A stretch of 59,228 bases of DNA from Nannocystineae bacterium (GTDB taxonomy: Bacteria; Myxococcota_A; Polyangia; Haliangiales; Haliangiaceae): assembly GCA_007133195.1 (NCBI GenBank), contig SLNH01000433.1, positions 1-59,228 on the forward strand, in the 5' to 3' direction. A program made the position numbers and the translations under genes. The notes under the pieces are model-generated. The model saw only the letters and a program-made list of their open reading frames with translations. It had not been told where the DNA came from and did not search any database. Position 1 is the first letter of the stretch, and every line of letters starts with the position of its first letter. Of the stretch, positions 2,300 to 52,950 are shown in pieces.

Positions 2300-3013
2300 T
2301 CAGCTCACCCTCGGTAACCGAAGCTCGAACGCGGTGCCCTTTTCGGGCTCGGCCGTGGCTCCCAGGCTGCCGCCGGCTTCCTCCGCGAGCTCCCGCGCCC
2401 AGACCTCCGCCGCCCGAGCCCGCTCGGGGTCTCCGGATCCGCTATCGGAGATCGAGATCACCACACTCTCGGGCTCGCCGGGCTCGCCCTCGCTGCGGGT
2501 GTGGATGGCGATGGCGGCGCCGCGGATGCCGCGCGCGGAGTCGGCGCAGGCCAAAATGAGCTGCGCCAGCGTGAGCACGAGCTTTCCGCCCGAGGTGCGC
2601 ACGGCGCCGGTGTGCCCGTAGTCGACGAAGACCTCGGTCTCGGCGGCGCAGTGACCGCGCGACAAAGACAGCGCGGACTCCACGCACTCCTCGACGTCCA
2701 CGGCTTGCGAAAGCGCCGGTCCCGCGCCGATCGCCTCGGCGAGGTGGCTCGCCAGCCGCGTCACCTCACGGCTGCGAAAGTAGGCCTCCGCGAGCCTCTC
2801 ACGGAGCGATCGCGTCGAGTCCCAGGGGTACGGATCGGGCCCCGTGGACTCGGTGAGGTGGCTGTCGAGCTCGTCGATCACCGACGCGAGCTCGCCGCGC
2901 AAGTCGCGGAGCGGGCGCACGAGCTCTGGCGCGACGCTGCTCGCGATCGCCCCCACGGCGGCCAGATCGGCGGCGCTGCGTCCGCCGGGCGGTGGCGACT
3001 CAGCTCCGCTCAT
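2300..3013 (-). CDS. Histidine-kinase-like protein lacking the phospho-acceptor His (pseudo-kinase)
   Basis: 237 residues from the ATG at 3013; the longer open frame lies inside the upstream gene. The N-terminal third resembles a HisKA dimerisation helix (GAIASSVAPELVRPLRDL), but the position of the catalytic His in the usual VAHEL pattern is Pro. The C-terminal half looks like a GHKL ATPase fold with a G1-like box (ISDSGSG). The N-box reads LAQLILACADSA, so both usual Asn residues are absent, and no G2 box is seen. There are no membrane segments. Its ATGA start overlaps the stop of the outer-membrane peptidase/propeller gene by four bases. It may be a degenerate kinase acting as a binding or scaffold protein. 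Activity loss is inferred from motifs only. Confidence 0.75.
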   Translation of the reverse strand: MSGAESPPPGGRSAADLAAVGAIASSVAPELVRPLRDLRGELASVIDELDSHLTESTGPDPYPWDSTRSLRERLAEAYFRSREVTRLASHLAEAIGAGPALSQAVDVEECVESALSLSRGHCAAETEVFVDYGHTGAVRTSGGKLVLTLAQLILACADSARGIRGAAIAIHTRSEGEPGEPESVVISISDSGSGDPERARAAEVWARELAEEAGGSLGATAEPEKGTAFELRLPRVS

Positions 3014-5931
3014 ATCGTTCCCGTAAACAAAAACCAGAATTCGTTTTGTCCATCCGCGGTGAGACCTCGTGCGTAGCCCAGGTCCAGCGAGCCGGGCAGA
3101 AAGTATCCGAATACCATGTCGAGGCGCAGTCCGCCGCCCGCCGACAGCTTGAACTCGCCGAGGTCGGGCCGGCCGTCGAACGCGTCCCCGGCGTCGAGGA
3201 GCGCCGCCGCGTGAATCCGCCTGACGTAGATCGGCAGGGTCTCGATCCCTCGCTCGATCTCCGCGATTTTCTGCCGGTACTCGAAGTTGGCCAAGTGGTA
3301 CTGGCTGCCGGTGGTCACCCGCCTGGGATAACCGCGAAGATACCCGGTGGAGGATCGGCGGCTCTCCGAGATGATCGAGTCGACGACATTCTGGCTGGGG
3401 ACCCCACCGATCGAATACACACCTGAGCGCTCTCGATCCGTTGATCGGAACGCGCCGACGGTTCGCAGCGACAGCGACGCGTCCCACGGCAAGTCCGCAA
3501 ACCCGCTCCAGCGGTAGCGAAGCGCGAGCGCCCGGAAATCCGAACCGATCGCGGGGTGGTCGAAGCGGAGGCTTACGGACGCGCTGTGTCCGCTCTGGGC
3601 CCCGATGGAATACCGTGTGCCGCGCGCCGAGCTGTAGCCGAGCGAGAGCGAAAGCTCGGACAAAAACACGTCCGTCTCCGGAAACTGCGGGACGCGATCA
3701 CCTGGGTCATAAGACTCGAACTCATCGCCCGTGTTGCGGAGCCAGTCGAAGCTGTACCCGGCACTCAACGTGGCCGACGAGCTCGGCCTGCGCCACAGGC
3801 TGATCCCGCTGTTTGCCGACAGCCCGAGCACCTCTTCGGTGTAGGCGGTGTTTTGCCCGTCGATGTAGACGCCGCCGCGCCGCCGAGCGCTCCGGGAGGC
3901 GGACACGCGGAGCGACGGCCACAGCCGATCGTAGGAATAGTTCACGGCCGCGCTCAGGTCGCCGTCCGACTCGAGGGTCGCCCCCAGCGAGTAGCCGTGG
4001 CGGCCGATGACGTCGCGACCGCTCGTGCTCACACCAATCGACTGCGAGGACGACGACAGCTCCGAGGACAGCGTGTAGTTCCGAGGCGCCAGCGTCTCGA
4101 GCGGCCGGTAGCGGCGGGACGGAGAGATCGGATAGGCGTCTTGCTCGACGACCACCGGATCGGGCCGGTCGTCGATGTGGGGCTCGGGATCCAGCCACCG
4201 GCTCGGCTCGAGCTCGAGCTCGTATAAATCGTGCCCGCGCTCGGTGAACCCGACGTAGGCGAGGCGGCGGCCGTCGGGCGACACGCTCGGCTGCACCGCG
4301 CTCCCGAGCACATTGGTCACCTGGTGGAGTTCGTCGGTCTCGAGGTCGTAGGCATACACGTTGTAGATGCCCGTGCGGTCGCTCGAAAAATACAGGTAGC
4401 GGCCGTCCGGGCCGAAGGTCGGGTGCGTATCCTGCGCGCGACTTTTCTCCAGCGCGCGCGCTCGTCCGCTGGCGACATCCAAGACGTAGATGTCGCGGTA
4501 TCCGCCCGCGCTCCAGGCAGACCACGCGATCTCGTTCCCCGAAGGAGACCACGCGGGCGAATACACCTGATCGAAGCGCCCCTCGCCGGACCACACGACC
4601 TCGGCGTCCGCGCCCGGCTCGAGCGGCATGAGCGCGAGATCGCGCCGTCCCCGCCCGCTCTGTACGAATGCGATCGTGGATTCGTCGGGCGACACGGCCG
4701 GATCGCGAGCCCTCCCGCCGCGCGTGAGGCGGGTGAAATCGCCGCTCGCCTCGTCGTAGTGGTAAAGCTCCTGAAAGCTGTAGTGGTAGCGGTACGGCCT
4801 CGTCATTTCGACGACCATGTCGTCGTTTTCGAGGAGCGAAAACTCGCCCACCCGGCGCATCGTCGAATAGGTGCGCGCGCGCCCGGCGTTCCCGCCGACG
4901 GGCATCCGCGAAAACCGGCCCTGCCGCACCCCGTCCGACTCGCGCCAGATGATCTCGGCGCCGCTTCGGGTGTAGCGCGGGCTCAGGCTGGTCTCCCCCG
5001 AGAACGTAAGCCGCCGCCCCTCGCGGCGCCCCCTGCGCTCCACCGCTTGCCGCTGCAGTTCGTATCTGCCGCGCAGGTAGTCGCGCCACTCCTGGTAAAG
5101 CTCGGGGAACCGCTTGCCCACGCTCTCCGCGATCGCGCGGTTTATGCCCCATGGGATCGCCTCGCGCCCGTAGGCCCACGACAGCTCGGCGAGCTTGTCC
5201 TCCCCGTAGCGGTCGAACACGTACTGGAGAAAATGCGATCCGTACAGGTACGGCACGTTGCCGTGCGGCCACACCCTCGGGTTGGCCGTCACGCGGTCGA
5301 GGTCGATGTGATCGCCGGCGAGATACGCCGCGCGCATGTAGGTGTCGAACAGCGCGCCCCGCGTCCGGCCTCCCGACGTGCGTTCGCTCTCCTGATAAGT
5401 GGCGATCCCCTCGACGAGCCACGTGGGCTGGATTTGGTTAGGCGCCCAAGTCTTGCCGAAGATCCGGTTATAAATGGACGGGAGGCCGCCGATGCTGTCG
5501 AGGTGAAGGATGTGCGCGTACTCGTGCGCCACGAGGAGGTAGTACCAGTCGTCGTAGTCGGCGAGCGGCGACATGCCCGTGGGCGCGGGCGCGAAGATCC
5601 GCATCACGTTGCGGGGAATCACGCGCGCGAAGCCACCAGCGCCGTCGCTGTCGTCGGTGACGATGATGTGGGTCTTTTCGTCGGGTTCGTGCTCGAAGAC
5701 CGGCACCATCTCGTGATGGGCGTGCTCTGCGACCACGGCGATGCGCTCGGCGATGTCGGCCAGCGGCCGGTCGTAGTGCACGATGAAGTGCTCGGACTCG
5801 ATCGTGCGCCACCTTTGGCTGGGATCGCCCGCGCTCGCCGCGGCCGGGGCGAGCCACAGGGCGATCACCGCGCAAACGCGCGCAGCCGCCGCCAGCCGGC
5901 GCGGACATCTCACGCAAAGGTGTTCGTGCAC
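3010..5931 (-). CDS. Secreted HExxH peptidase-like / beta-propeller / BamA-type barrel protein
   Basis: 973 residues from the GTG at 5931; another in-frame GTG lies at 5913. A signal peptide (hydrophobic AVIALWLAP, then AASA) is followed by a gluzincin-like domain with HEYAH at residues 136-140 and WLVEG with a candidate third zinc ligand at Glu174. Residues ~230-570 carry PD40/TolB-type propeller blades (for example SPDGRRLAYVGF and DGRYLYFSSDRTG). The last ~370 residues alternate aromatic and polar residues like an outer-membrane barrel and contain a surface-antigen-like stretch (GYLRGYPRR). The protein probably sits in the outer membrane with peptidase and propeller in the periplasm. It is followed by a coupled pseudo-kinase. 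Peptidase activity is inferred from the ligands only. Confidence 0.85.
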   Translation of the reverse strand: MHEHLCVRCPRRLAAAARVCAVIALWLAPAAASAGDPSQRWRTIESEHFIVHYDRPLADIAERIAVVAEHAHHEMVPVFEHEPDEKTHIIVTDDSDGAGGFARVIPRNVMRIFAPAPTGMSPLADYDDWYYLLVAHEYAHILHLDSIGGLPSIYNRIFGKTWAPNQIQPTWLVEGIATYQESERTSGGRTRGALFDTYMRAAYLAGDHIDLDRVTANPRVWPHGNVPYLYGSHFLQYVFDRYGEDKLAELSWAYGREAIPWGINRAIAESVGKRFPELYQEWRDYLRGRYELQRQAVERRGRREGRRLTFSGETSLSPRYTRSGAEIIWRESDGVRQGRFSRMPVGGNAGRARTYSTMRRVGEFSLLENDDMVVEMTRPYRYHYSFQELYHYDEASGDFTRLTRGGRARDPAVSPDESTIAFVQSGRGRRDLALMPLEPGADAEVVWSGEGRFDQVYSPAWSPSGNEIAWSAWSAGGYRDIYVLDVASGRARALEKSRAQDTHPTFGPDGRYLYFSSDRTGIYNVYAYDLETDELHQVTNVLGSAVQPSVSPDGRRLAYVGFTERGHDLYELELEPSRWLDPEPHIDDRPDPVVVEQDAYPISPSRRYRPLETLAPRNYTLSSELSSSSQSIGVSTSGRDVIGRHGYSLGATLESDGDLSAAVNYSYDRLWPSLRVSASRSARRRGGVYIDGQNTAYTEEVLGLSANSGISLWRRPSSSATLSAGYSFDWLRNTGDEFESYDPGDRVPQFPETDVFLSELSLSLGYSSARGTRYSIGAQSGHSASVSLRFDHPAIGSDFRALALRYRWSGFADLPWDASLSLRTVGAFRSTDRERSGVYSIGGVPSQNVVDSIISESRRSSTGYLRGYPRRVTTGSQYHLANFEYRQKIAEIERGIETLPIYVRRIHAAALLDAGDAFDGRPDLGEFKLSAGGGLRLDMVFGYFLPGSLDLGYARGLTADGQNEFWFLFTGTI

Positions 5932-5946: not shown

Positions 5947-5961
5947 GGTAAAGTGCGGGTC

Positions 5962-6828
5962 ATGCGCACGCCACGATCGCCATCCCGCCGCCGCGCCGCC
6001 CGGAGCGGGGGATCCGGATTCACCTCGCCGCGGCCAGGGTGGGCGGCTGCCGCTCTGGCGGTCTGCGGAGTCTTGGTCCTCGCCTGCCAGCCGACGCGAA
6101 GCGCAGGTCAGGCCACCGACGACGGGAGCCCCGACGACCGCGCGACAGCCCCGACGCCGAGCGACTCCCCCGCAGACGAACACGAAAATGACTCTCGTTC
6201 GTCGGGTGATTCGGACGCCCCGGAGCCGGGGACCGAGCCGACCGATCTCGACGGCGAGCCCGCAGACGCACCGGCCAGCGATGGGGAAGGCGATGACGAG
6301 CGGGCGGGCGAGCGCATCCCTTACGTCGACGAAGATCACGCGCAGTACAGCCGCGTAGAGGGCACGGCGTTCGACAACGACTGCGAGACCGATGAGGATT
6401 GCCACGTCGGGGGCTGCTCGAGCGAAGTTTGCTCCGCCGAGCCCGGCGTGACCACGACGTGCGAGATGCCCGCCTCCGGTTGGGCGTCGTCGGGGGGCAC
6501 GTGCGGCTGCGTGGAGGGTACGTGCAAGTGGTACAAGGTGGCCGGGGAGAGCAAACCGCCCCAAAACGGAAACCAGGGCGAACCAACCCGGGCCGAGGGG
6601 CGGTCGCCCCATGCCCTCGAAGGACAGGGTGAGGCGTGCCGAGACGGCGCGTGCCCAGATCCGCTCGACTGCGTCACCTACTACGGCGTCGCCGGGACCA
6701 AGGGACCGGAGTTTTCGTCCTGCGAGATACCCTGTCCCGGCGGTAGCGACGAGCCGTGTCCCGACGAGCAGACCTGCGTGGCGATCGCCGACGGGCCCGG
6801 AGAGGTGTGCCGCGCCCGTCCCGAGTGA
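5962..6828 (+). CDS. Lipoprotein with eight-cysteine domain (paralogue 1)
   Basis: 288 residues from the ATG at 5962. A basic N-terminus and hydrophobic core end in the lipobox LVLAC with Cys42 as lipidation site. A ~75-residue acidic, Asp/Glu/Ser/Pro-rich linker follows, then a domain of about 70 residues with eight cysteines (NDCETDEDCHVGGCSSEVC, then a Cys and a CGCVEGTC cluster). The C-terminal ~65 residues form a second Cys-rich module (GEACRDGACPDPLDC onward). Eight-Cys domains of this type are known from myxobacterial secreted proteins, and their function is unknown to me. The next gene repeats the first domain. The acidic linker and disulfide-rich modules suggest a surface-exposed or periplasmic protein. 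Confidence 0.85.
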   Translation: MRTPRSPSRRRAARSGGSGFTSPRPGWAAAALAVCGVLVLACQPTRSAGQATDDGSPDDRATAPTPSDSPADEHENDSRSSGDSDAPEPGTEPTDLDGEPADAPASDGEGDDERAGERIPYVDEDHAQYSRVEGTAFDNDCETDEDCHVGGCSSEVCSAEPGVTTTCEMPASGWASSGGTCGCVEGTCKWYKVAGESKPPQNGNQGEPTRAEGRSPHALEGQGEACRDGACPDPLDCVTYYGVAGTKGPEFSSCEIPCPGGSDEPCPDEQTCVAIADGPGEVCRARPE

Positions 6829-6938
6829 CCGCGCGGAAAGGCCCAAACCGTTCGCGCGTCCGCGTGCGCCGGGGCAAGTTTCCCGATATGGTCGCGGCCA
6901 TGTGCGGCGTTAAAAACGCGCGTCCCCGGCCGCCGGCG

Positions 6939-7538
6939 ATGACGCGCGTCCTTCGAAGCCCGAATCTCGGCCTGATCGTCGCGCTGTGCGCGCTCGGCCT
7001 CGCCGCCGGCCCCGCCTGCAGCAGCGATGACGAGCCCGAGGCTGAAATACCGGCCGAGGGGGCGGGCAGCCCGGATGACGCGGCCCCGGATCCTGACCGC
7101 GGCGACGAGGCAGCAACCGGGGACGAGCCAGGCGACCCCGCAGCACGAAAGGACGCCGGCTCGCCGGACGACCGCGCTTCCGATCGAGACGATTCGGCTG
7201 ACTCGGCTGGCGAACCTGGCGGCGAGCCGGAAAACCAGGCCGATCGCGCCCCCGCGCGGGACGACGGCGCCGGCGATCCGTCCGCCGACCGCGGCGCCCG
7301 CGTTCCTGCGGTGCCGGAGGACCACGGGCAATACGCCCAGGTCGAAGGCGAGGAGTTCGAAAACGATTGCGAAAGCGACGCCGACTGCCACGTCGGCGGG
7401 TGCTCGAGCGAGGTATGCTCCGCCGAGGAGGGCATCACCACGATGTGCGTCGTCCCCGACGACGGCTGGGCGTCCCAGGGCGCCGACTGCGGCTGCCTTC
7501 AGGGCTCGTGCCGCTGGTATAAAGACGGCGGCAGCTGA
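6939..7538 (+). CDS. Lipoprotein with eight-cysteine domain (paralogue 2)
   Basis: 199 residues from the ATG at 6939, chosen because it places a normal signal peptide before the lipobox AAGPAC (Cys27). In-frame ATGs at 6888 and 6900 are alternatives, and none has a good ribosome site. After the lipidation site comes a long acidic Asp/Glu/Pro/Ala linker. The eight-Cys domain ends the protein (NDCESDADCHVGGCSSEVC, then CGCLQGSCRWYK) and matches the preceding lipoprotein almost position for position. The second Cys-rich module of paralogue 1 is missing. The two genes look like a tandem duplication in which the domain is conserved and the linkers are not. Function unknown. Confidence 0.85.
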   Translation: MTRVLRSPNLGLIVALCALGLAAGPACSSDDEPEAEIPAEGAGSPDDAAPDPDRGDEAATGDEPGDPAARKDAGSPDDRASDRDDSADSAGEPGGEPENQADRAPARDDGAGDPSADRGARVPAVPEDHGQYAQVEGEEFENDCESDADCHVGGCSSEVCSAEEGITTMCVVPDDGWASQGADCGCLQGSCRWYKDGGS

Positions 7539-8138: not shown

Positions 8139-8298
8139 CTAGAGCCCATCTCAAAAATCTCCCATCGCCCGACGCGCGATCCATCACCGCCAGCGGCGTT
8201 GCTCCTCAGTCACGGGCAAAAGCCCGCTCCTTCGTCGCGCCTAGCTGGCGGCGCGCCTCACACGCCGGGCTCGGTCCGATTTGTGAGATGGGCTCTAG
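8139..8298. mobile_element. MITE-like element with 21-bp terminal inverted repeats and CTAG ends
   Basis: 8139-8159 and the reverse complement of 8278-8298 match at 20 of 21 positions; the outer 15 are identical (CTAGAGCCCATCTCA). The ~120 bases between contain no ORF. If the CTAG at each end is the target duplication, the element proper is 152 bp. CTAG fits the YTAR target of the IS5 family (known for that family; the match here is inference). The right CTAG supplies the TAG stop of the EI gene, and the left end begins eight bases after the opposing lipoprotein gene. The long repeat could also act as a bidirectional terminator. Confidence 0.7.
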
Positions 8299-10076
8299 TC
8301 GTCGTCTTCGCCGTCGCCGAGCTTGGCCTCGGCATAGTACGCGCGGACCTCGTGTTTCACCTCGTCCGCGGTGCGAAGCTCCAAGAGTCGCGAGGCGAGC
8401 GACTGAAGCCCCGCGACATGGGCGGACCGCACCTTGCTCTTGATCTCGGGGATCGCGGTCGCGTTCATCGACAGCTCGCGTAGCCCGAGCCCCACGAGGG
8501 CCGGGGCTACGTACGGATCCCCCGCGGCCTCACCGCATACGCCTACCGAAACGTTCGCGGCCTTCGCCGCCCCCACCACCATGCTGATCAGCCTCAGGAT
8601 CGCCGGGTGGAGCGGCTCGTACGCGTAGGCGACGTACTCGTTCACGCGATCAACGGCGAGCGTGTACTGAATCAGATCATTCGTGCCGATCGACAAAAAG
8701 TCCACTGCCGGCGCCAAAAAGTCCGAGATCACCGCCGCCGACGGCATCTCGACCATCACGCCGACCTCGACGTCCCGGTCGAAATCTCGCCCCTCGCGCC
8801 ACAGCTCCTCTTTGGCCTCGTCGAGCACCTCACGCGCCTTCTGGAGGTCGCGCAAACCCGAGATCATCGGAAACATGATGCGGGCGCGCCCGTGCGCCGA
8901 CGCTCGCAGAAGGCCCCGGAGCTGCTGCTTGAACACCGGGCGGACCGCGCTTGTGAGGCACAGGCGCATCGAGCGCAACCCGAGCGCGGGGTTTGCCTCC
9001 GAGTGGAGATCGGGCAGGAGCCGAGAGACCTTGTCCGCCCCGAGATCGAATGTGCGAAACGTCGCGGGATGCGGCGAGAGCGCCTCGACCACCTGCTTGG
9101 CGTGCTCGTAGTGGTCCTCTTCCTCGGGAAAGCTTTCGGACGTCATAAACAAATACTCGGTCCGAAACAGCCCCACCCCGACCGCGCCGTGATCGGTCGC
9201 GCTTTTGACCTCCCGCACGTGATCCACGTTGGCGAGCAGCGCGATCTCCACTGCGTCGACCGACTCGGCCGGCAAGTCGCGGTTTTCCAGGAGCGCCGCG
9301 CCGCGGGCGGCCTCTTTGCGAGCCCGCTCGCGGTAGGCGGCGACGGTCTCCGCCGCTGGCTGAACGACGACGATCCCGCGCGAACCATCGACGACGAGCA
9401 GATCGCCGTTTTCCACGGCGGTGGTCACGTCCTCCAGGCCCACCACGGCCGGCACCTCGTTCGAGCGCGCCACGATCGCGGTGTGGGCGGTCTTGCCGCC
9501 GGCGTCGGTGGCGAGCGCCGCGACGGCGAAGCGAAACAGCTGGATCGAGTCGGCCGGAGACAGGTCGTGGGCCACGACGATGGCGTCCGGCGGGGGCCTC
9601 ACCGACGAGTCGTAGCCGAGCAGGTTGCGCAAGATGCGCTCCCCCACGAAGTCGACATCGCTCCGCCGCTCGCGAAAGTAGTCGTCATCGATCGCGTCGA
9701 ACACGCCCTTGATGTGCTCGACCGTCTTGCGGAGCGCCCACTCCGCGTTGTTGTGCTCGTCGCGGATGTAGCGCTCCGTCTCATCGACCACGTGCTCGTC
9801 ATGGAGAATGAGCTGGTGCGCCGCGATGATCTTGTAGTGCTCGCTCTCTTCCCGCTCCTCGATCTTCTCCTTGATCCACTCGAGTTGGCGATCGCTCACC
9901 CGTAGGGCGCGCCGAAACCGCGCGATCTCTTCATCGACCTCGTCGGGATCGATCGTGCGCTTGGGGATCTTGAGGCGGCTGCGATCGACGACATACGCGC
10001 GGCCGATCGCGATGCCCGGCGACGCCGCCGTGCCGCGCAGCTCCTGGCCCCGCGCTTCGGAGCGCTGTCGCGTCAC
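8295..10076 (-). CDS. ptsI: PTS enzyme I (phosphoenolpyruvate-protein phosphotransferase)
   Basis: 593 residues, a normal enzyme I length without the extra GAF domain of EI-Ntr (PtsP). It transfers phosphate from PEP to its His and then to HPr. The swivelling domain holds the active site GGKTAHTAIVARS with His198. The C-terminal TIM barrel has the PEP-binding stretch SIGTNDLIQYTLAVDR and the catalytic GVCGEAAG Cys. It overlaps the HPr stop by four bases and is the last gene of the rpoN/PTS cluster. No sugar-specific EIIB/EIIC is present, so the likely role is regulatory. The final Asp-rich tail (GDGEDDD) ends at a TAG contributed by the MITE candidate, so the natural C-terminus may have been altered. 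Confidence 0.95.
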   Translation of the reverse strand: MTRQRSEARGQELRGTAASPGIAIGRAYVVDRSRLKIPKRTIDPDEVDEEIARFRRALRVSDRQLEWIKEKIEEREESEHYKIIAAHQLILHDEHVVDETERYIRDEHNNAEWALRKTVEHIKGVFDAIDDDYFRERRSDVDFVGERILRNLLGYDSSVRPPPDAIVVAHDLSPADSIQLFRFAVAALATDAGGKTAHTAIVARSNEVPAVVGLEDVTTAVENGDLLVVDGSRGIVVVQPAAETVAAYRERARKEAARGAALLENRDLPAESVDAVEIALLANVDHVREVKSATDHGAVGVGLFRTEYLFMTSESFPEEEDHYEHAKQVVEALSPHPATFRTFDLGADKVSRLLPDLHSEANPALGLRSMRLCLTSAVRPVFKQQLRGLLRASAHGRARIMFPMISGLRDLQKAREVLDEAKEELWREGRDFDRDVEVGVMVEMPSAAVISDFLAPAVDFLSIGTNDLIQYTLAVDRVNEYVAYAYEPLHPAILRLISMVVGAAKAANVSVGVCGEAAGDPYVAPALVGLGLRELSMNATAIPEIKSKVRSAHVAGLQSLASRLLELRTADEVKHEVRAYYAEAKLGDGEDDD

Positions 10077-10360
10077 GTCTCGTCCTCGCCGAACCCGCTC
10101 GCCACGAGGTCGGCGAGCGCTCGAGTGGCGGCCTCGGCGTCTTCCCCGCGCGCCCGCACGAGGATCTGGCTCCCTTGCGACGCCACGAGCATCAGCACGC
10201 CCATGATGCTCTTCCCGTTGACCTCTTCGCCCTCCTTCTCGACGCTCACCTCACTCTGGAATTCGCTGGCGAGCTGCACGAACTGACTGGCGGCGCGCGC
10301 GTGCATGCCGAGCTCGTTGACGACCGTGACGCTCCTCTCGCTTGTCTTGTCCTCTGCCAT
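10073..10360 (-). CDS. ptsH: HPr phosphocarrier protein
   Basis: 95 residues from the ATG at 10360, the only start that gives the usual HPr length; upstream codons overlap rapZ. The EI phosphorylation site is His20 in NELGMHARAA. The regulatory serine is Ser51 in GKSIMGVLMLVA, matching the HPr kinase target site. This agrees with the HprK gene four genes into the same cluster. HPr passes phosphate from EI to EIIA-type proteins, and Ser phosphorylation slows that flow. The gene starts 14 bases after the rapZ stop and overlaps the EI start by four bases. Confidence 0.95.
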   Translation of the reverse strand: MAEDKTSERSVTVVNELGMHARAASQFVQLASEFQSEVSVEKEGEEVNGKSIMGVLMLVASQGSQILVRARGEDAEAATRALADLVASGFGEDET

Positions 10361-10374
10361 CGGGCCGCTTTCCC

Positions 10375-11214
10375 TCACCCGGTCTCGTCCAAGTCGCGGT
10401 GCCTCACCGATACGGACCACACAGGCTCGAGCTCAACCTTGAACCGCTCGACCACCGCGACCGAGCGATGTCGCCCGCCCGTGCAACCGACGGCGATCGT
10501 CAAATAGCGCTTTCCCTCGCGCTCGTACTGCGGAAGGGTAAACGACAAAAGCCGCCCCGCGTGCTCCATGAACGCGTCGGCCTCCTCGAGCCCCAGCACG
10601 AAGCTTTGAACCTCGGGGTCCCGCCCGTCGAGGCCCGACAGTCGCGCGTCGAAGTAAGGGTTGGCCAGAAAACGCACGTCGAACACGAGGTCGGCCTCGA
10701 GCGGCAGACCGCGCTTGTACCCGAATGACAGCAGCGTGACGGCGAGCTTGCCTTCACCCACGCTGTAGCGCTCCTGAATGATCCCCTTGAGCTGGTGCAC
10801 GTTGAGCTGCTCGGTGTCGAGCACGGCGGCGCGCTCGCGGAGCTCGCTCAGGATCTCGGTGTCTCGGCGGATCCCCTCCACGAGGTCGTCGCCCGCCAGC
10901 GGGTGCCGGCGCCGCGTCTCCGAGTAGCGGCGCTGAAGGATCGAGGCCGCGGCCTCGAGGTAGAGCACCTCCACATCGTGCCCCTCGCCGCGCAGGCGCT
11001 CCACCTCATCGGTGAAGTGGGCCAAAAACGGCTGCTGCCGCGCGTCCACGGAGATGGCGACCCGCCGCTCGCCAGCGTCCGAGAGCACGTCGCAAAGCTC
11101 GCGCACGAGCGGCAGAGGAAGGTTGTCGGCGCAGTAAAAACCCACGTCCTCGAGCGCTTGAAGCGCCGTGCTTTTGCCCGCCCCCGAGAGCCCTGTAACG
11201 ATGACGATCTTCAA
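10375..11214 (-). CDS. rapZ: RapZ/YvcJ-family nucleotide-binding protein
   Basis: 279 residues. The Walker A motif GLSGAGKST is at the N-terminus and the family block CADNLPLPLV follows. The C-terminal domain contains DVRFLANPYF and TIAVGCTGGRHRSVAV, both diagnostic of the family. In E. coli RapZ is an RNase E adaptor controlling GlmZ sRNA and glucosamine-6-phosphate synthesis. In other bacteria the family (YvcJ) binds GTP or ATP and nucleotide sugars, so the exact role here is inferred. The start is a TTG directly after the hprK TAA, which implies strict translational coupling. Linkage of rapZ to rpoN and PTS-Ntr genes is classic in Proteobacteria. Confidence 0.95.
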   Translation of the reverse strand: MKIVIVTGLSGAGKSTALQALEDVGFYCADNLPLPLVRELCDVLSDAGERRVAISVDARQQPFLAHFTDEVERLRGEGHDVEVLYLEAAASILQRRYSETRRRHPLAGDDLVEGIRRDTEILSELRERAAVLDTEQLNVHQLKGIIQERYSVGEGKLAVTLLSFGYKRGLPLEADLVFDVRFLANPYFDARLSGLDGRDPEVQSFVLGLEEADAFMEHAGRLLSFTLPQYEREGKRYLTIAVGCTGGRHRSVAVVERFKVELEPVWSVSVRHRDLDETG

Positions 11215-12192
11215 TTATTCGACCGAGTCAGTGTCAAAAGGATGCGGCCGCGCCTCGGAGATGGCGCGGTTCAATCGATCCTGAAACGCCCGCGCCGCGT
11301 GGTGGCCCATGGCCTTCAAAAGCTGATTGCGCGCAGCCACCTCGATGATGGTCGCGATGCTCCGGCCGGGCCGGACGGGCACCCGGAGCTTCGGCACGCT
11401 CGCCCCGAGCACCTGGTAGTAGTGGTCGTCGATGCCCAGCCGCTCGTACTCCTCGTCGGCGCTCCACTCCGCGAGCTCCATCACGACCTCGATCTTCTTC
11501 GCCTCCCGAATCGCCGAAATGCCGAACAGATCCTGGATGTTGATGATACCGAGACCGCGGATCTCCATGTGATGGCGGATGATCGGCGATCCGGATCCAT
11601 AGATGAGGTTCGGCCCGCGCCGGCGGATGTTCACGATGTCATCGGCGACGAGGCGGTGCCCCCGAACGAGGAGGTCGAGCGCCGCCTCGCTCTTGCCGAT
11701 GCCGCTTTTGCCGAGCAGGAGCACGCCGACGCCGAGGACGTCGAGAAGCACGCCGTGCACCGACGTGGTGGGCGCGAGGACGTCGTCGAGATACGTGCCG
11801 AGGCGCGCGATGAGCTCTCCGGTGACGAGATCGCTCACCAGCAGCGAAACACCACGCTCCTCGCACGCCCGCACGAGCTCGGGCAGGGGCGCTTGCCCCC
11901 GCGTGACCACCACGCACGCCGGATCCGAGGACATGAGCGTCTCCAGGCCGAAGGTGCGCTCCTCCGACGACAGCCCGCCCAGGTACTGAAGCTCCGTACC
12001 GCCGAGGATCTGGATGCGCCCCCGGTGGAGCTCCTCGGGGAACCCGGACAGCGCTAGGCCAGGTTTTTGGACCCTAGGAGATGTGACCGCTCGCTGCAGG
12101 CCCTCGCTGCCGGCCTCGAGCCGGAATTCGAACCCCGCGTTTTCCTCCTTGAGGAGCGCTTCCACGCCCAACTTCGCGCTACCCTCCTCCAT
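11215..12192 (-). CDS. hprK: HPr kinase/phosphorylase
   Basis: 325 residues. The N-terminal domain is the less conserved HPrK_N fold. The C-terminal catalytic domain has the P-loop GKSGIGKSE, the HPrK-specific VADDIVNI and MEIRGLGIINI blocks (the latter a signature of the family) and the end helix with RAISEA. It phosphorylates or dephosphorylates the regulatory Ser of HPr in response to ATP, Pi and metabolites. In Gram-negatives lacking sugar PTS permeases it is believed to tune PTS-Ntr output. It starts three bases after the EIIA stop and is followed with no gap by rapZ. Confidence 0.95.
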   Translation of the reverse strand: MEEGSAKLGVEALLKEENAGFEFRLEAGSEGLQRAVTSPRVQKPGLALSGFPEELHRGRIQILGGTELQYLGGLSSEERTFGLETLMSSDPACVVVTRGQAPLPELVRACEERGVSLLVSDLVTGELIARLGTYLDDVLAPTTSVHGVLLDVLGVGVLLLGKSGIGKSEAALDLLVRGHRLVADDIVNIRRRGPNLIYGSGSPIIRHHMEIRGLGIINIQDLFGISAIREAKKIEVVMELAEWSADEEYERLGIDDHYYQVLGASVPKLRVPVRPGRSIATIIEVAARNQLLKAMGHHAARAFQDRLNRAISEARPHPFDTDSVE

Positions 12193-12195
12193 GGC

Positions 12196-12657
12196 TCAGT
12201 ACTTCGCGTCCTCCTCTGCGATGATTTCGTACATTTTGTCCGCGTCGGGGGCCTCGAGGAGCCGCCGGCGAAAGTCTGCGTCCTTGAACACGCGACTGAT
12301 GCGAGCCAGCGCCTTGAGGTGAGCCCCGGTGGAATTTTCCGGCGCGACCAGCACGAAGAACAAGTAGGTGGGCTGGCCGTCCATGGAGTCGAAGTCGACC
12401 CCTTGGGGCGCGCGACCCACGCAGGCGTGAATCTCGCGCACCCGCGGAAGCTTGCCGTGCGGAATCGCCACCCCCTCGCCGATCGCGGTCGAGGCGAGGC
12501 CTTCGCGATCGATCAGCACCTTGGTGAGAGCGTCCTTGTCGACGTCCTCGTGGCGGGCGGACAGGTACGCGGCGAGCTCCTTGATAATGCCCGACTTGCT
12601 GGTCGACGAGAGCGCGGGAACGAGCATGTCCCGCTGGATGAGATCGACGATATTCAT
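12196..12657 (-). CDS. ptsN: PTS EIIA-Ntr-type regulatory protein
   Basis: 153 residues, one EIIA mannitol/fructose-type domain. The phosphorylated His lies in GVAIPHGKLPRV, the hallmark of the family. There is no EIIB or EIIC domain attached, as expected of EIIA-Ntr, which regulates potassium transport, phosphate sensing and nitrogen metabolism through protein contacts. It stands directly after hpf and before hprK, the normal place in rpoN clusters. The terminal acceptor of the EI-HPr relay in this window is most likely this protein, because no other EIIA is visible. Confidence 0.93.
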   Translation of the reverse strand: MNIVDLIQRDMLVPALSSTSKSGIIKELAAYLSARHEDVDKDALTKVLIDREGLASTAIGEGVAIPHGKLPRVREIHACVGRAPQGVDFDSMDGQPTYLFFVLVAPENSTGAHLKALARISRVFKDADFRRRLLEAPDADKMYEIIAEEDAKY

Positions 12658-12790
12658 CGGCGGAATGCGCGGCAGTCAGGTGGCCTGGCCGGCACGGACA
12701 GATGACCCGCACGGCCGCGGGGGCAAGTGCCCCATTGATGATGCGCGCGTCGTCACGAGGCCACGGGTACGGGACACTAGCACAAGGTGA

Positions 12791-13504
12791 TCACGACGAC
12801 GCGCTGGTCTCGATCAATCCGTAGGTACCGTCGTCGCGCCGGTAGACCACGTTCACCTGACCGGTGCGATCGCTCTGATACACCAAGAACTGCTCGTGAA
12901 GAAGGTTCAGCTGCATGATCGCCTCGTTTGCTGACATCGGCGTGGCGTGAAACTTCTCGGCTTTGTCCACGATGTCGTGCCGGCCCGGCTCGACCGCCGG
13001 CGGGGCGGCACCGACCTCGGGCAGGCCGTCCGCGCGGTCCGCCAGGGCCTCACCGTCCGCGAAGCTCGGGTCCACGCCGCCCGGCGGGGCCGCGAGCTCA
13101 CCGGCCTCGGCCATCTCCGGTTCGCGGGCAGCGGCGATCTCGGCCTGCACGCGATCGTGCTCCTCCGATATGATCGAGTGCGATGCCGCGAGCGGCGGGT
13201 AGGTGCTCTTGACCCTGCGCTGGCGGAGCTTGTCCTTGTATCGCTTGACCTGGCGCTCGACCTTCGCCGCCACCAAGTCGATCGAGGAGTACATGTTCTC
13301 CCCCATCTCGTGCGCCGCGACGGTAAACCCGTTGTGGAGTTGGAGGTTTACGTCTGCTCGATGATTGTGCCGCTCCTTGCTCAGCACCACGTGGCAAGCG
13401 ATGGGGTCGGGCAGGTACTTGCGGATCCGGCCGAGCCGGTCCTCGGCGTACGCTTTCAGCGCGTCGCTGGCGTCCATTTGGCGAAAGGTCACGGAAAGCT
13501 GCAT
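12791..13504 (-). CDS. hpf: Ribosome hibernation promoting factor, long form
   Basis: 237 residues from the ATG at 13504, which starts the conserved MQLSVTFRQMDASDALK helix-strand; the further open frame upstream lacks similarity. The first ~100 residues are the S30AE/YfiA fold that enters the decoding centre (HVVLSKERHNHRADVNLQL). A variable acidic linker leads to the C-terminal dimerisation domain (MSANEAIMQLNLLHEQFLVY, then NVVYRRDDGTYGLIE), which makes 100S ribosome dimers in long-form HPF proteins. hpf normally follows rpoN; here an unusual ~530-base gap separates them. Confidence 0.93.
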   Translation of the reverse strand: MQLSVTFRQMDASDALKAYAEDRLGRIRKYLPDPIACHVVLSKERHNHRADVNLQLHNGFTVAAHEMGENMYSSIDLVAAKVERQVKRYKDKLRQRRVKSTYPPLAASHSIISEEHDRVQAEIAAAREPEMAEAGELAAPPGGVDPSFADGEALADRADGLPEVGAAPPAVEPGRHDIVDKAEKFHATPMSANEAIMQLNLLHEQFLVYQSDRTGQVNVVYRRDDGTYGLIETSASS

Positions 13505-14033
13505 GGCGCTCGCGATCTCTCCTTTTGAGGTCCGGTCACCCGGCTCGGCCCGGGCTCCTCGTCTCCAGGCCACCCGCGAGATGAGGGCCCCCCGCCCCGC
13601 GCGACGCCGCCGGAGCTGGACGAATCGAAACCCCCATCATGCATCTAGTCTCGCACACCTTGTAGCTGCGGAGGACCACCCAGGGGACGAGAATTCGACT
13701 CCAACAGCCCGCCGACGCGGCGCAGGGTGAGCGCTGTGCCGACCCCGGCGCGCGGGGCGCCCGGCCGTGGTAGGCAGCAGCCGGCGAGGGTCTGTCGCCG
13801 GCCGAGATGCTGTCCGGGCACGCGCCGCCAGCCGACCCCGGCGTGCACTCCCGGCAGGCGCCCGCCGGCGGCCCCTGAGGATGCGTGCCCGCCTGTCCGA
13901 ACGGCCCGCCCCGCGGGCCTCGCGAACCCGCGTTTTGCGCAAACCAGCGACCTCGCAACCACCCCGGGGCGCGAACGAGCCCGACGCCCCCTAGGCTCGC
14001 CGGAGGGAACCACCACCGCCCGCCGAGCGGGCG
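13505..14033. other. Long GC-rich gap between rpoN and hpf
   Basis: 529 bases separate two genes that are usually adjacent. I find no protein I recognise; open minus-strand frames are rich in Pro, Arg and Gly and are typical of GC-rich non-coding DNA. No tRNA, RNase P, tmRNA or SRP RNA landmark was found. The strongest structure is the hairpin at 13775-13812. A promoter for hpf could lie near 13505-13660, which is less GC-rich, but no clear -35/-10 pair is seen. Confidence 0.6.
13775..13812. other. Strong bulged hairpin in the rpoN–hpf gap
   Basis: CAGCAGCCGGCGA at 13775-13787 pairs with TCGCCGGC at 13795-13802 and TGCTG at 13808-13812, leaving a 7-base loop and a 5-base bulge. Thirteen pairs in two helices make this stronger than random GC pairing nearby. 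No U-run follows on either strand. It could be part of a structured RNA, an mRNA processing site or a terminator without a U-tract. Confidence 0.5.
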
Positions 14034-15524
14034 TCAGAGGACTTGTTTGCGCTTGGACGAGCTCAGGATGCCGAGCTGCTCGCGGTACTTGGCGACCGTG
14101 CGGCGCGCGATGTCGATTTTGTGATCGCGCAACAGCTCGACGAGCTTCTGGTCGGAAAACGGACGCTTGGGCGGCTCGCCGGAGATGAGCTCTTTGATCT
14201 TGCTCTTGACCGCCTGCGAGGCGAGGTCCTCGCCGCTCGTCCGCGCGATGCCCGAGCTGAAGAAGAATTTCAGCTCGAATATCCCCTGCGGCGTGTGAAC
14301 GTACTTGTTCGTCGTAACGCGCGAGATCGTCGACTCGTGCATGCCGATATCCTCTGCCACGTCGCGGAGGATCAGGGGCTTTAGGTAAGCGATGCCCCGC
14401 TCGAAGAACTCGCGCTGGAACTTGATGATCGACTCGGTGACCTTGATGATCGTTCGCTGGCGCTGCTGGATCGAGCGAATGAGCCACTGCGCGGAGCGGA
14501 GCTTGTCCTGGATGTATTCCTTGGCCCCCTCCGAGTTGTCCATCGCCGCTCGGTAAAACGACGAGATCTTCAGCTTGGGTAGGCCGTCGTCGTTGGGGAC
14601 GACGAAGAAGCGCTCCCCGACTTTGTGAACGTAGACATCGGGGGTGATGTAGTGGGGTTCGTCGGCGCTGTACTGGCGACCCGGCCTGGGGTCGAACTCC
14701 ATGATGGCCTTGGCCGCCTCGTAGATCTCCTCGATGGGCTGCTTGAGGTCCCTGGCGATGGCCTGGTAGTTGCGCTTCTCCAGGTTGCCAAGGTGCGACT
14801 TGATGATCTTGACGACGAGGTCGTCGTCCTGACCGAAGTACATCGCCTGGATCAGCATGCACTCGGCGAGGTTGCGGGCGCCGACGCCTATCGGGTCGAA
14901 GCCCTGGATCACCTCGAGCACCTCCTCGGCCGCGTCCTCGCTGAGGCCCGATTCTTCGGCGATCTCGGCGAGTGGCGGATCCTTGAGGTAGCCGTCGGCG
15001 TCGATATTGCCGAGAATGAGGATGCCGACGTTGCGCTTGTCGTCATCCATTTCGGCGAGGGTGAGCTGCCAGTGGAGATGATCGTACAGTGAAGCGGAGC
15101 GCGTGAGGGTCGCTTCCAGTGAAGGCAGCTCTTCCCCGTCGCCGAGGCGCTGGGCCGGCATCGGCGCCGTGGTCGAGTAGCTCTCGAGGTAGGTTTCCCA
15201 GTCGATCTCGCCGACCGCCGAATCGTCCCCCTTCACCTCGGTTTCCTTGTTTTGGTTCTCCGTGGTGGGGGTCTCGGTATTGCCGGCGTCTTCCACGTGA
15301 CGCGTAGCGTCATCCTCCCCGCCGAGGGGCTCGCGCTCGCGAGAGGCCTCGGCTGAAGACTCGATATCGTCCTCGAGGATGGGATTCTCGAGCATTTCCT
15401 CGCGAACGAGGTCCACGAGCTCCATTCGGGAAAGTTGCAGCAGCTTGATCGCCTGCTGCAGCTGGGGGGTCATCACCAGCTGCTGAGACAGCTTCAGCTG
15501 CTGGCGCATCTCCATGGCGGCCAT
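14034..15524 (-). CDS. rpoN: RNA polymerase sigma-54 factor
   Basis: 496 residues. Region I is present and Gln/Leu-rich (LKLSQQLVMTPQLQQAIKLLQLS), followed by an acidic region II. The core-binding domain and the helix-turn-helix (DVAEDIGMHESTISRVTTNKY) are intact. The C-terminal RpoN box reads ARRTVAKYREQLGI, recognising the -24 element. The protein directs enhancer-dependent transcription of nitrogen, motility and developmental genes. It heads the hpf-ptsN-hprK-rapZ-HPr-EI cluster. The lptB gene that often precedes rpoN is not here. I found no convincing -24/-12 promoter within this window. Confidence 0.96.
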   Translation of the reverse strand: MAAMEMRQQLKLSQQLVMTPQLQQAIKLLQLSRMELVDLVREEMLENPILEDDIESSAEASREREPLGGEDDATRHVEDAGNTETPTTENQNKETEVKGDDSAVGEIDWETYLESYSTTAPMPAQRLGDGEELPSLEATLTRSASLYDHLHWQLTLAEMDDDKRNVGILILGNIDADGYLKDPPLAEIAEESGLSEDAAEEVLEVIQGFDPIGVGARNLAECMLIQAMYFGQDDDLVVKIIKSHLGNLEKRNYQAIARDLKQPIEEIYEAAKAIMEFDPRPGRQYSADEPHYITPDVYVHKVGERFFVVPNDDGLPKLKISSFYRAAMDNSEGAKEYIQDKLRSAQWLIRSIQQRQRTIIKVTESIIKFQREFFERGIAYLKPLILRDVAEDIGMHESTISRVTTNKYVHTPQGIFELKFFFSSGIARTSGEDLASQAVKSKIKELISGEPPKRPFSDQKLVELLRDHKIDIARRTVAKYREQLGILSSSKRKQVL

Positions 15525-51213: not shown

Positions 51214-52950
51214 TTAGGACCCTCCCTGGCCCGAGCCCCCCGGCTTGTCACCCGGCTTGTCGGGCGGCGGCCCCCATTGGAACTGGGTTTTCGCCAGCGA
51301 TTTGTCGGGCGGACCAGGGGCCGCGGCCGGGGCCGGTTCGGCATCCTGTGCCGGAGGCGGGTTTTCGCCCTGCGGACCTGCGCCCGGAACATCACCGGGG
51401 TGGCTCGCTTGTGGCGGATGGCCGGGCTGCGGATGGCCGGGCTGCGGATGGCCGGGCTGCGGATGACCGGCTTGCGGGTAGCCGGGCTGCGCTTGGCCGC
51501 CCGGCGGATAGCCGGGCTGCGGATGACCGGCTTGCGGATGGCCGGGTTGCGCCTGACCGCCCTGCGGATAACCCGGCTGCCCCTGGCCACCATGCGGATG
51601 GCCGGGCTGCGCCTGGCCGCCCGGCGGGTAACCCGGCTGCGGATGACCGGCTTGCGGGTGGCCGGGTTGCGCCTGGCCGCCCGGCGGATAGCCGGGCTGC
51701 GGATGACCGGCTTGCGGGTGGCCGGGCTGCGCCTGACCGCCCGGAGCCGCTTGGCCAGGAACCTGGCCGGCCATCGCCGCCGCCGCTCCTGCCATCGCCA
51801 CCGGCATACCCCCGCCCGCGCCCGCCGGCGCCGGAGCAGCCCCGCCCGGCACGCCGCCGCCAGCGCCGCCATCGCCTCCGTCCGGCGCTCCCCCAGCCGC
51901 AGCCCCCACGGCAGGCGCGGACTCGGAGATCTGCTGCGCCGCGCCGCCACCTCCAGGCAACTCTTCCATTTTCAGATAGGCCAAGAGCTCCCCCCGGAGC
52001 TCTTCGGCGATGTGCTCGGGCCGCTCGATCTGCGTGTAAAAGATCGTGAAGTAGCTGACCTTGACGGTGGTCACGGCCCGGTCGAGGACGATGCTGCCGA
52101 GCTTGGCGACGAACAGGAGCCCCACGAGCGGAATCAGCGTGAGTTCCAGCGCGCCGTCCGTGAGCATCCACGACGGCACGTCCCCTGCGTCGGACGCGGA
52201 GACGAACTCCACCGACGGCAAAATCCCCGCCAGCCAAACGCTCATCGCGAACGCCAACAGCGCGATCAGGGCGTAAATCGGCGCGACCAGTATGCCCACG
52301 ATCCGGCCGATGAAGTCGATCCCGAAAACGCCCACCAGCGTCTTCGGCACGTGATCTTTGAGCTCCTTGATCTTCGCCACGCCGTCGCGGATCGACAGGC
52401 GATCGAGCGTCACGGCGGGCAACAGATAGTGGTTGACGAGGTCCCAGACCTCTGCGATGCCGCGCATGAGCAGCGAGAGCAAAAACGACGCGAAGCCTCC
52501 CTTGCTCCGCTTTCGCGACGTGATGCTCATCAGCCACGACACGAACATGTCCAAAAGCGCGATCTTCCGGATCTGGCCGGCGATCGCCTTGGTCTCCGTT
52601 GCCGCCTCGTCCAGGGTGCGGTTTCGCCCCGCCACCGTCTCGCCGACGAGCCAGGCCTGCATGGCCTCCTGCCGCGTGAAGTAAAAGAACTCGTACAAAA
52701 ACAGCGGCACCCAGAGCCCGATGGCGATCAGGCCCGCCGTGAAAAGCCCCTCGCTGTCGGTGAAGCCGCCGTGAATTGCGAGCCCGATGCCGACGAACAG
52801 CGGGAGATTGGCGATCGCGCCGTACACGACGGTCCTTATCGCCGGGGACAAGATCCCCCGATGGCGCCCCACCACCGTGAACGTGTTTTTTAAAAGGTAC
52901 TTAACTCGGTGAAAGCGTTCCCTGGCGGAGACGCGCTGTACATTCTGCAT
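51214..52950 (-). CDS. Multi-pass membrane protein with Pro/Gly/Gln repeat tail (DUF6159-like?)
   Basis: 578 residues. Residues 1-~345 hold several membrane segments ([51 protein letters not shown]), with cytoplasmic charged loops between. This resembles DUF6159 integral membrane proteins from memory; I could not verify it. The remaining ~230 residues are low-complexity Gly/Ala/Pro, ending in repeats of the type [20 protein letters not shown]. The tail resembles flexible scaffold or adhesive regions, and its function is unknown. It stands alone, convergent with truD and divergent from the amidohydrolase. Confidence 0.75.
51415..51745. repeat. Minisatellite coding the Pro/Gly/Gln tail
   Basis: About 330 bases built from a 15-base unit (GCCGGGCTGCGGATG and variants), grouped into ~60-base higher-order blocks. 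Three tandem 15-base copies occur at one end. All spacings are multiples of three, so copy-number change keeps the frame. Unit differences show the array is older than a fresh expansion. Confidence 0.9.

Follow-up and report, generated by a model that had tools for sequence, protein, structure and literature searches.

What use would a bacterium have for a putative zinc peptidase that is joined, through a beta-propeller, to an outer-membrane barrel in one polypeptide? This question is raised by a gene in the 59,228-nucleotide stretch of DNA analysed here (the window; contig SLNH01000433.1 of assembly GCA_007133195.1, from a Nannocystineae bacterium). The host phylum is Myxococcota, as judged by named relatives, and the closest among the matches listed belong to Kofleriaceae. 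A first-pass annotation had placed a three-module secreted protein at 3010-5931, with an HExxH peptidase, a propeller and a BamA-type barrel in one chain. These coordinates are correct, and translation puts the gene on the minus strand, where it starts with a GTG at 5931, stops with a TGA at 3012-3010 and encodes 973 amino acids; a GTG at codon 7 could be an alternative start. In the AlphaFold2 full-length model, computed from a 77-row alignment (mean predicted local distance difference test score (pLDDT) 90.1, predicted template modelling score (pTM) 0.88), all three modules are folded with high confidence, and the three-module architecture is almost certainly assigned correctly. The reading we favour, and consider the probable one, is that of an outer-membrane-anchored, periplasm-facing zinc peptidase with the propeller as its recognition module, for which envelope quality control would be the likeliest job. 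The gene and its product have the following features.

3010..5931, stop codon included, minus strand: whole gene of the peptidase-propeller-barrel protein (translation, full-length homologues across the phylum, AlphaFold2 model)
5830..5931, minus strand: predicted Sec-type signal peptide, residues 1-34 (sequence, low-confidence N-terminus in AlphaFold2, inference)
5032..5826, minus strand: predicted gluzincin-fold zinc peptidase module, residues 36-300 (fold matches; 24 of 260 positions invariant in 77 rows)
5512..5526, minus strand: HEYAH, residues 136-140, with H136, E137 and H140 invariant (sequence, alignment, shuffles)
5410..5412, minus strand: Glu174 in WLVEG, proposed third zinc ligand (invariant in 77/77; aligned with distant WLIEG and WFIEG)
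5239..5250, minus strand: YLYG, residues 228-231, in which Tyr228 or Tyr230 is the candidate catalytic tyrosine (alignment conservation)
4183..5031, minus strand: TolB-like beta-propeller, residues 301-583 (PD40 match, VIA-align to TolB)
4090..4182, minus strand: propeller-barrel linker, residues 584-614 (AlphaFold2 secondary structure)
3013..4089, minus strand: 16-stranded Omp85-type barrel, residues 615-973 (strand list, BamA matches, PF01103)
3325..3339, minus strand: LRGYP, residues 865-869, counterpart of the Omp85 loop-6 VRGF/Y motif (alignment, strand order)

HEYAH at residues 136-140 and Glu174 stand in the translation exactly where they had been annotated. In the full model the HExxH motif is part of a helix spanning residues 129-144, and Glu174 belongs to the second long helix further on (170-183); a helix-borne HExxH with a candidate Glu ligand in a later helix is a feature of gluzincins. 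Folded alone with 26 relatives, the peptidase module reached a mean pLDDT of 80.5 and a pTM of 0.82. Its best fold match by VIA-align was the M30 peptidase lugdulysin (7bb8; Z 16.1, root-mean-square deviation (rmsd) 3.9, 228 residues aligned), followed by M1 aminopeptidases (Z 13.7-15.2) and leukotriene A4 hydrolase (LTA4 hydrolase; Z 13.8), and Foldseek additionally returned M9 collagenases and M61 enzymes. The module is largely helical, and helical folds can give generic Z scores up to about 13. The gluzincin fold was assigned because the scores exceed this value, coverage is full-length and nearly all top rows are gluzincins. Lugdulysin and the M1 aminopeptidases share the fold over the whole N-terminal module, but identity is about 12-16%, they have no propeller or barrel and they come from different organisms. 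A viral fold library gave only distant M1/M61-like matches, and sequence-profile searches of solved structures returned no peptidase relative of the N-domain. The fold matches, together with invariance in all 77 sequences, back the earlier proposal that the module is a peptidase of gluzincin type and that Glu174 probably serves as its third ligand.

Conservation of the active site was followed in two kinds of samples. A pattern scan of genome contigs left 80 loci with titles of Myxococcota or Deltaproteobacteria type, and the 77-row alignment consists of the window protein and 76 relatives retrieved by three degenerate patterns, HExxH being part of one of them. Across these sequences H136, E137, H140, E174, G175, E181, R189, Y228 and G231 are invariant and Y230 is kept in 76/77. 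The YLYG stretch aligns with YRYG and YKFG in distant relatives, and position and conservation make Tyr228 or Tyr230 a candidate for the catalytic tyrosine. Sets collected by whole-protein similarity, with no motif selection, are the cleaner evidence on the active site: HExxH is kept in all 29 further genomes found in this way, and at 20 of 20 far more distant loci HExxH is followed by EG; wherever relatives from these sets were inspected for it, the EG was there. A chance HExxH was considered and rejected, as conservation, fold matches and a shuffle test all contradict it; the motif arose in 4.3% of 5000 shuffles of the protein, and HExxH followed by W..EG.A in none of the 5000. The peptidase is the best conserved of the three modules. 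Mean identity to the window protein over the 77 sequences is 0.48 for the peptidase, 0.41 for the propeller and 0.34 for the barrel, with 24, 7 and 12 invariant positions, respectively. The N-terminal module is very likely an active peptidase.

The family is retained across the phylum. A profile of the peptidase matched in 197 of 269 sampled Myxococcota genomes (E <= 1e-8), that is, in nearly three quarters. Among the ~150 places listed, all but 12 fall within open frames longer than 900 amino acids, and several of the short ones stop at contig ends. The whole-protein similarity list is likewise topped by full-length matches, at 53, 46 and 41% identity.

The propeller had been annotated from PD40/TolB blades, and this was borne out by a Pfam scan (PD40 repeats, 64.3 bits against a cut-off of 20.9) and by comparison with TolB structures (VIA-align Z 26.0, rmsd 2.2, 239 residues aligned). 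TolB of the Tol-Pal system thus has the same fold and the same repeats, but it is a separate soluble periplasmic protein, and the window protein stays far under the cut-off of the TolB equivalog model (TIGR02800; 120.2 bits, E 1.1e-34, cut-off 343). For the C-terminal part, which had been read as a BamA-type barrel, structure prediction indeed yields 16 long strands within residues 618-971 and a match to BamA structures with a Z of about 20. LRGYP sits between strands 11 and 12, and its G867 (77/77), R866 (72/77) and Y868 (74/77) are highly conserved. The Omp85 family PF01103 was matched marginally above its cut-off of 24 in a whole-genome search (24.2 bits); it was absent from the single-protein Pfam scan of the window protein and present in 12/26 relatives. 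The Pfam scan gave no patatin domain. POTRA domains were not found at the window locus (C319), and matches were confined to other places in the genome, which encodes, apart from the window protein, a BamA with five POTRA domains and further POTRA-Omp85 proteins. Because the genome has its own POTRA-bearing BamA, the window protein is not a BamA replacement. The Omp85 features examined and the gluzincin fold are both present in it, and it does not qualify as a TolB, a BamA, a PlpD or a Peptidase_MA_2 protein.

A propeller-plus-barrel protein is already named as an Omp85 subfamily, though unstudied. Heinz and Lithgow (2014) distinguished a WD40-Omp85 subfamily, whose propeller is TolB-like, and proposed for it a fusion of BamA-BamB type; their text makes no mention of HExxH or of a peptidase module in it (PMC4104836). 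As far as the subfamily is described there, the window protein resembles it in having a TolB-like propeller directly N-terminal to an Omp85 barrel and no POTRA. The Pfam family PF00149 is that of calcineurin-like phosphoesterases, not a gluzincin family. It is the one by which the 'Metallo' (metalloprotease) Omp85 subfamily is defined in the same paper (PMC4104836). Both the WD40-like and the metalloprotease subfamilies are uncharacterised according to the PlpD paper, and PlpD is the only experimentally mapped enzyme-carrying Omp85, with a periplasmic enzyme domain (PMC11116518). Like the window protein, PlpD, a patatin-Omp85 (type Vd), carries an N-terminal enzyme on an Omp85 barrel, but it differs in having a patatin lipase as the enzyme, a single POTRA and no propeller. 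A study of a three-module peptidase-propeller-barrel protein was not found in the open-access literature.

The peptidase-propeller-barrel build occurs three times in the genome of the window. Two further proteins, at G000:C196:2425-5757 (+) and at G000:C398 (locus L143:643-3984, +), form a second subfamily; they have ~1,110 amino acids each and are 61% identical to each other. Each carries a signal peptide, an HExxH motif in the form HELVH or HELAH, and WFIEG; the middle is propeller-like and the end matches Omp85 weakly. One of the two aligns colinearly with the family of the window protein, from HExxH on into the barrel (E 6.7e-14). Sampling of 58 genomes of the phylum turned up this subfamily in 6. 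As a separate observation, the same genome encodes two TPR-containing proteins with Peptidase_MA_2 above its cut-off (G000:C131:525-1139 and G000:C167:20764-21171). In a plasmid search, the only match covering the peptidase came from plasmid pSR116 of Salinibacter ruber (WP_118831798.1, L118:2869-4770), a protein of 633 amino acids annotated as 'basic secretory protein-like'. It consists of a homologous peptidase and propeller, with both active-site stretches in register and in the same order (hhalign E 1e-37) and its WLIEG aligned with WLVEG of the window protein. Since it differs in having no barrel, the enzyme-propeller pair exists beyond the phylum, with and without a barrel.

How might such a protein work? 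The N-terminal region has a hydrophobic helix (11-26) and AAASA preceding GDP, and a reading of residues 1-34 revealed no lipobox cysteine. The term 'secreted' in the first-pass annotation holds for export across the inner membrane; anchoring in the outer membrane fits better than release. A Sec signal peptide would export the protein, and the C-terminal Omp85-type barrel would insert into the outer membrane. Because a 16-stranded Omp85 barrel has its two ends on the periplasmic side, propeller and peptidase would remain there, with the peptidase outermost; by the model and by analogy, a periplasmic location of the N-terminal modules is very likely. The periplasm-facing arrangement is also favoured because the surface model of PlpD was overturned for the periplasm (PMC11116518). 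Zinc would be held by His136 and His140 of HEYAH and by Glu174, water would be activated by Glu137, and the intermediate would probably be steadied by Tyr228 or Tyr230. The TolB-like propeller is a likely docking platform, which may present or recognise a substrate or a partner, and cleavage of proteins by the enzyme would take place on the inner side of the outer membrane. Cleavage at this face had been suggested before: the placement stands as the likeliest one, given the even 16-strand barrel, the loop-6 motif and the PlpD precedent, and the cleavage itself is what we infer.

The likeliest job of such an enzyme would be the handling of misassembled outer-membrane proteins or lipoproteins, as BepA does on the BAM machine. 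BepA, a zinc peptidase of the periplasm, has an outer-membrane protein at the BAM machine as its target (PMC8423444). The two proteins share a proposed role, that of a zinc peptidase working on the periplasmic side of the outer membrane, but BepA is an M48 enzyme of another fold family, is not fused to a barrel and has no propeller. Quality control of outer-membrane proteins or lipoproteins is drawn from this analogy, without support from partner genes, and we put it forward tentatively as the function. A bolder version, in which recognition (propeller), proteolysis (gluzincin) and a membrane-thinning barrel in one chain would extract faulty outer-membrane proteins and then destroy or mature them, seems to us rather unlikely.

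Among other explanations, the one that survives best is a role in outer-membrane biogenesis, as a BamA-BamB-like fusion in which the peptidase would serve only self-processing or regulation. An Omp85 barrel with a loop-6 motif would suit such a role, and a fusion of this type is what has been proposed for propeller-plus-Omp85 proteins (PMC4104836). However, the locus has no POTRA, the most conserved module is the peptidase and not the barrel, and a canonical BamA is present in the genome, so that we regard this role as unlikely. Still less probable is that the peptidase-propeller part crosses the outer membrane or is displayed on its outer side, where it would digest external protein, for instance in predation. 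Many Myxococcota are predators that release proteases, and the barrel-less relative in Salinibacter ruber is probably exported; both points speak for digestion outside the cell. Against them stand large, confidently folded N-terminal modules preceding a closed 16-strand barrel, a family that is mostly single-copy and widely retained, which is housekeeping-like and not predation-like, and the surface model of PlpD (the old type Vd idea), which was tested and rejected (PMC11116518). A pseudo-enzyme that uses the gluzincin fold as a binding scaffold would agree with a module below the cut-off of every curated peptidase family, but it is highly improbable, as the metal ligands and the general base are all invariant, very distant relatives included.

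Some observations nevertheless weigh against the barrel-anchored zinc peptidase that we prefer. The Salinibacter ruber relative indicates that the peptidase-propeller pair can work away from an outer-membrane barrel. No Pfam peptidase family reached its cut-off for the N-domain, Peptidase_MA_2 (PF13485) scoring 18.6 bits against 32.4. Across 61 loci no constant neighbour was found among the called genes, which do not include the open reading frame at 2300-3013 of the window. This open reading frame is the next gene downstream:

2300..3013, minus strand: kinase-like open reading frame of 237 amino acids (ATG overlapping the stop codon of the peptidase gene in ATGA; HATPase_c 19.2 bits, cut-off 26.4)

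The gene is probably co-translated with the peptidase-propeller-barrel gene. Its match to the histidine-kinase-type ATPase is sub-threshold, and a clear phosphoacceptor domain was not seen in it. Beyond it, further downstream, lies a gene for a CobW GTPase. This metal chaperone-type neighbour is present at 12 of the 61 loci, the window included, which is too weak for an argument about zinc supply, and that argument was dropped. A conserved operon partner was rejected as well, since neighbours are clade-specific: phosphotransferase system (PTS) genes and a CobW GTPase in one clade, frr, pyrH and ribosomal genes in another, and other genes in a third.

The upstream genes are divergent and lipoprotein-like. 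Two of them stand in tandem (5953-6828 and 6756-7538, +) and have in common an acidic low-complexity stretch followed by the Cys-rich block DCExDxDCHVGGCSSEVCSAE; the first (5953-6828) had no Pfam match. By reading of the open reading frames, a PTS-Ntr-like cluster lies at 8295-15524 (-), with enzyme I, HPr, a RapZ-like ATPase and HPr kinase-like, EIIA-like, ribosome hibernation factor-like and sigma-54-like members; in related genomes, too, parts of this cluster lie close to the peptidase-propeller-barrel gene. The gene at 51214-52950 (-) encodes a membrane protein that has at its C-terminus a long repeat tail rich in Pro, Gly and Gln.

Omp85 subfamilies that await characterisation pose an open question for the biology of the outer membrane. 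Should the WD40-type members of Myxococcota prove to be zinc peptidases anchored in that membrane, one such subfamily would gain testable chemistry, and Omp85 barrels would carry a second enzyme class besides patatin lipases. Outer-membrane proteolysis would then become accessible across a whole phylum.

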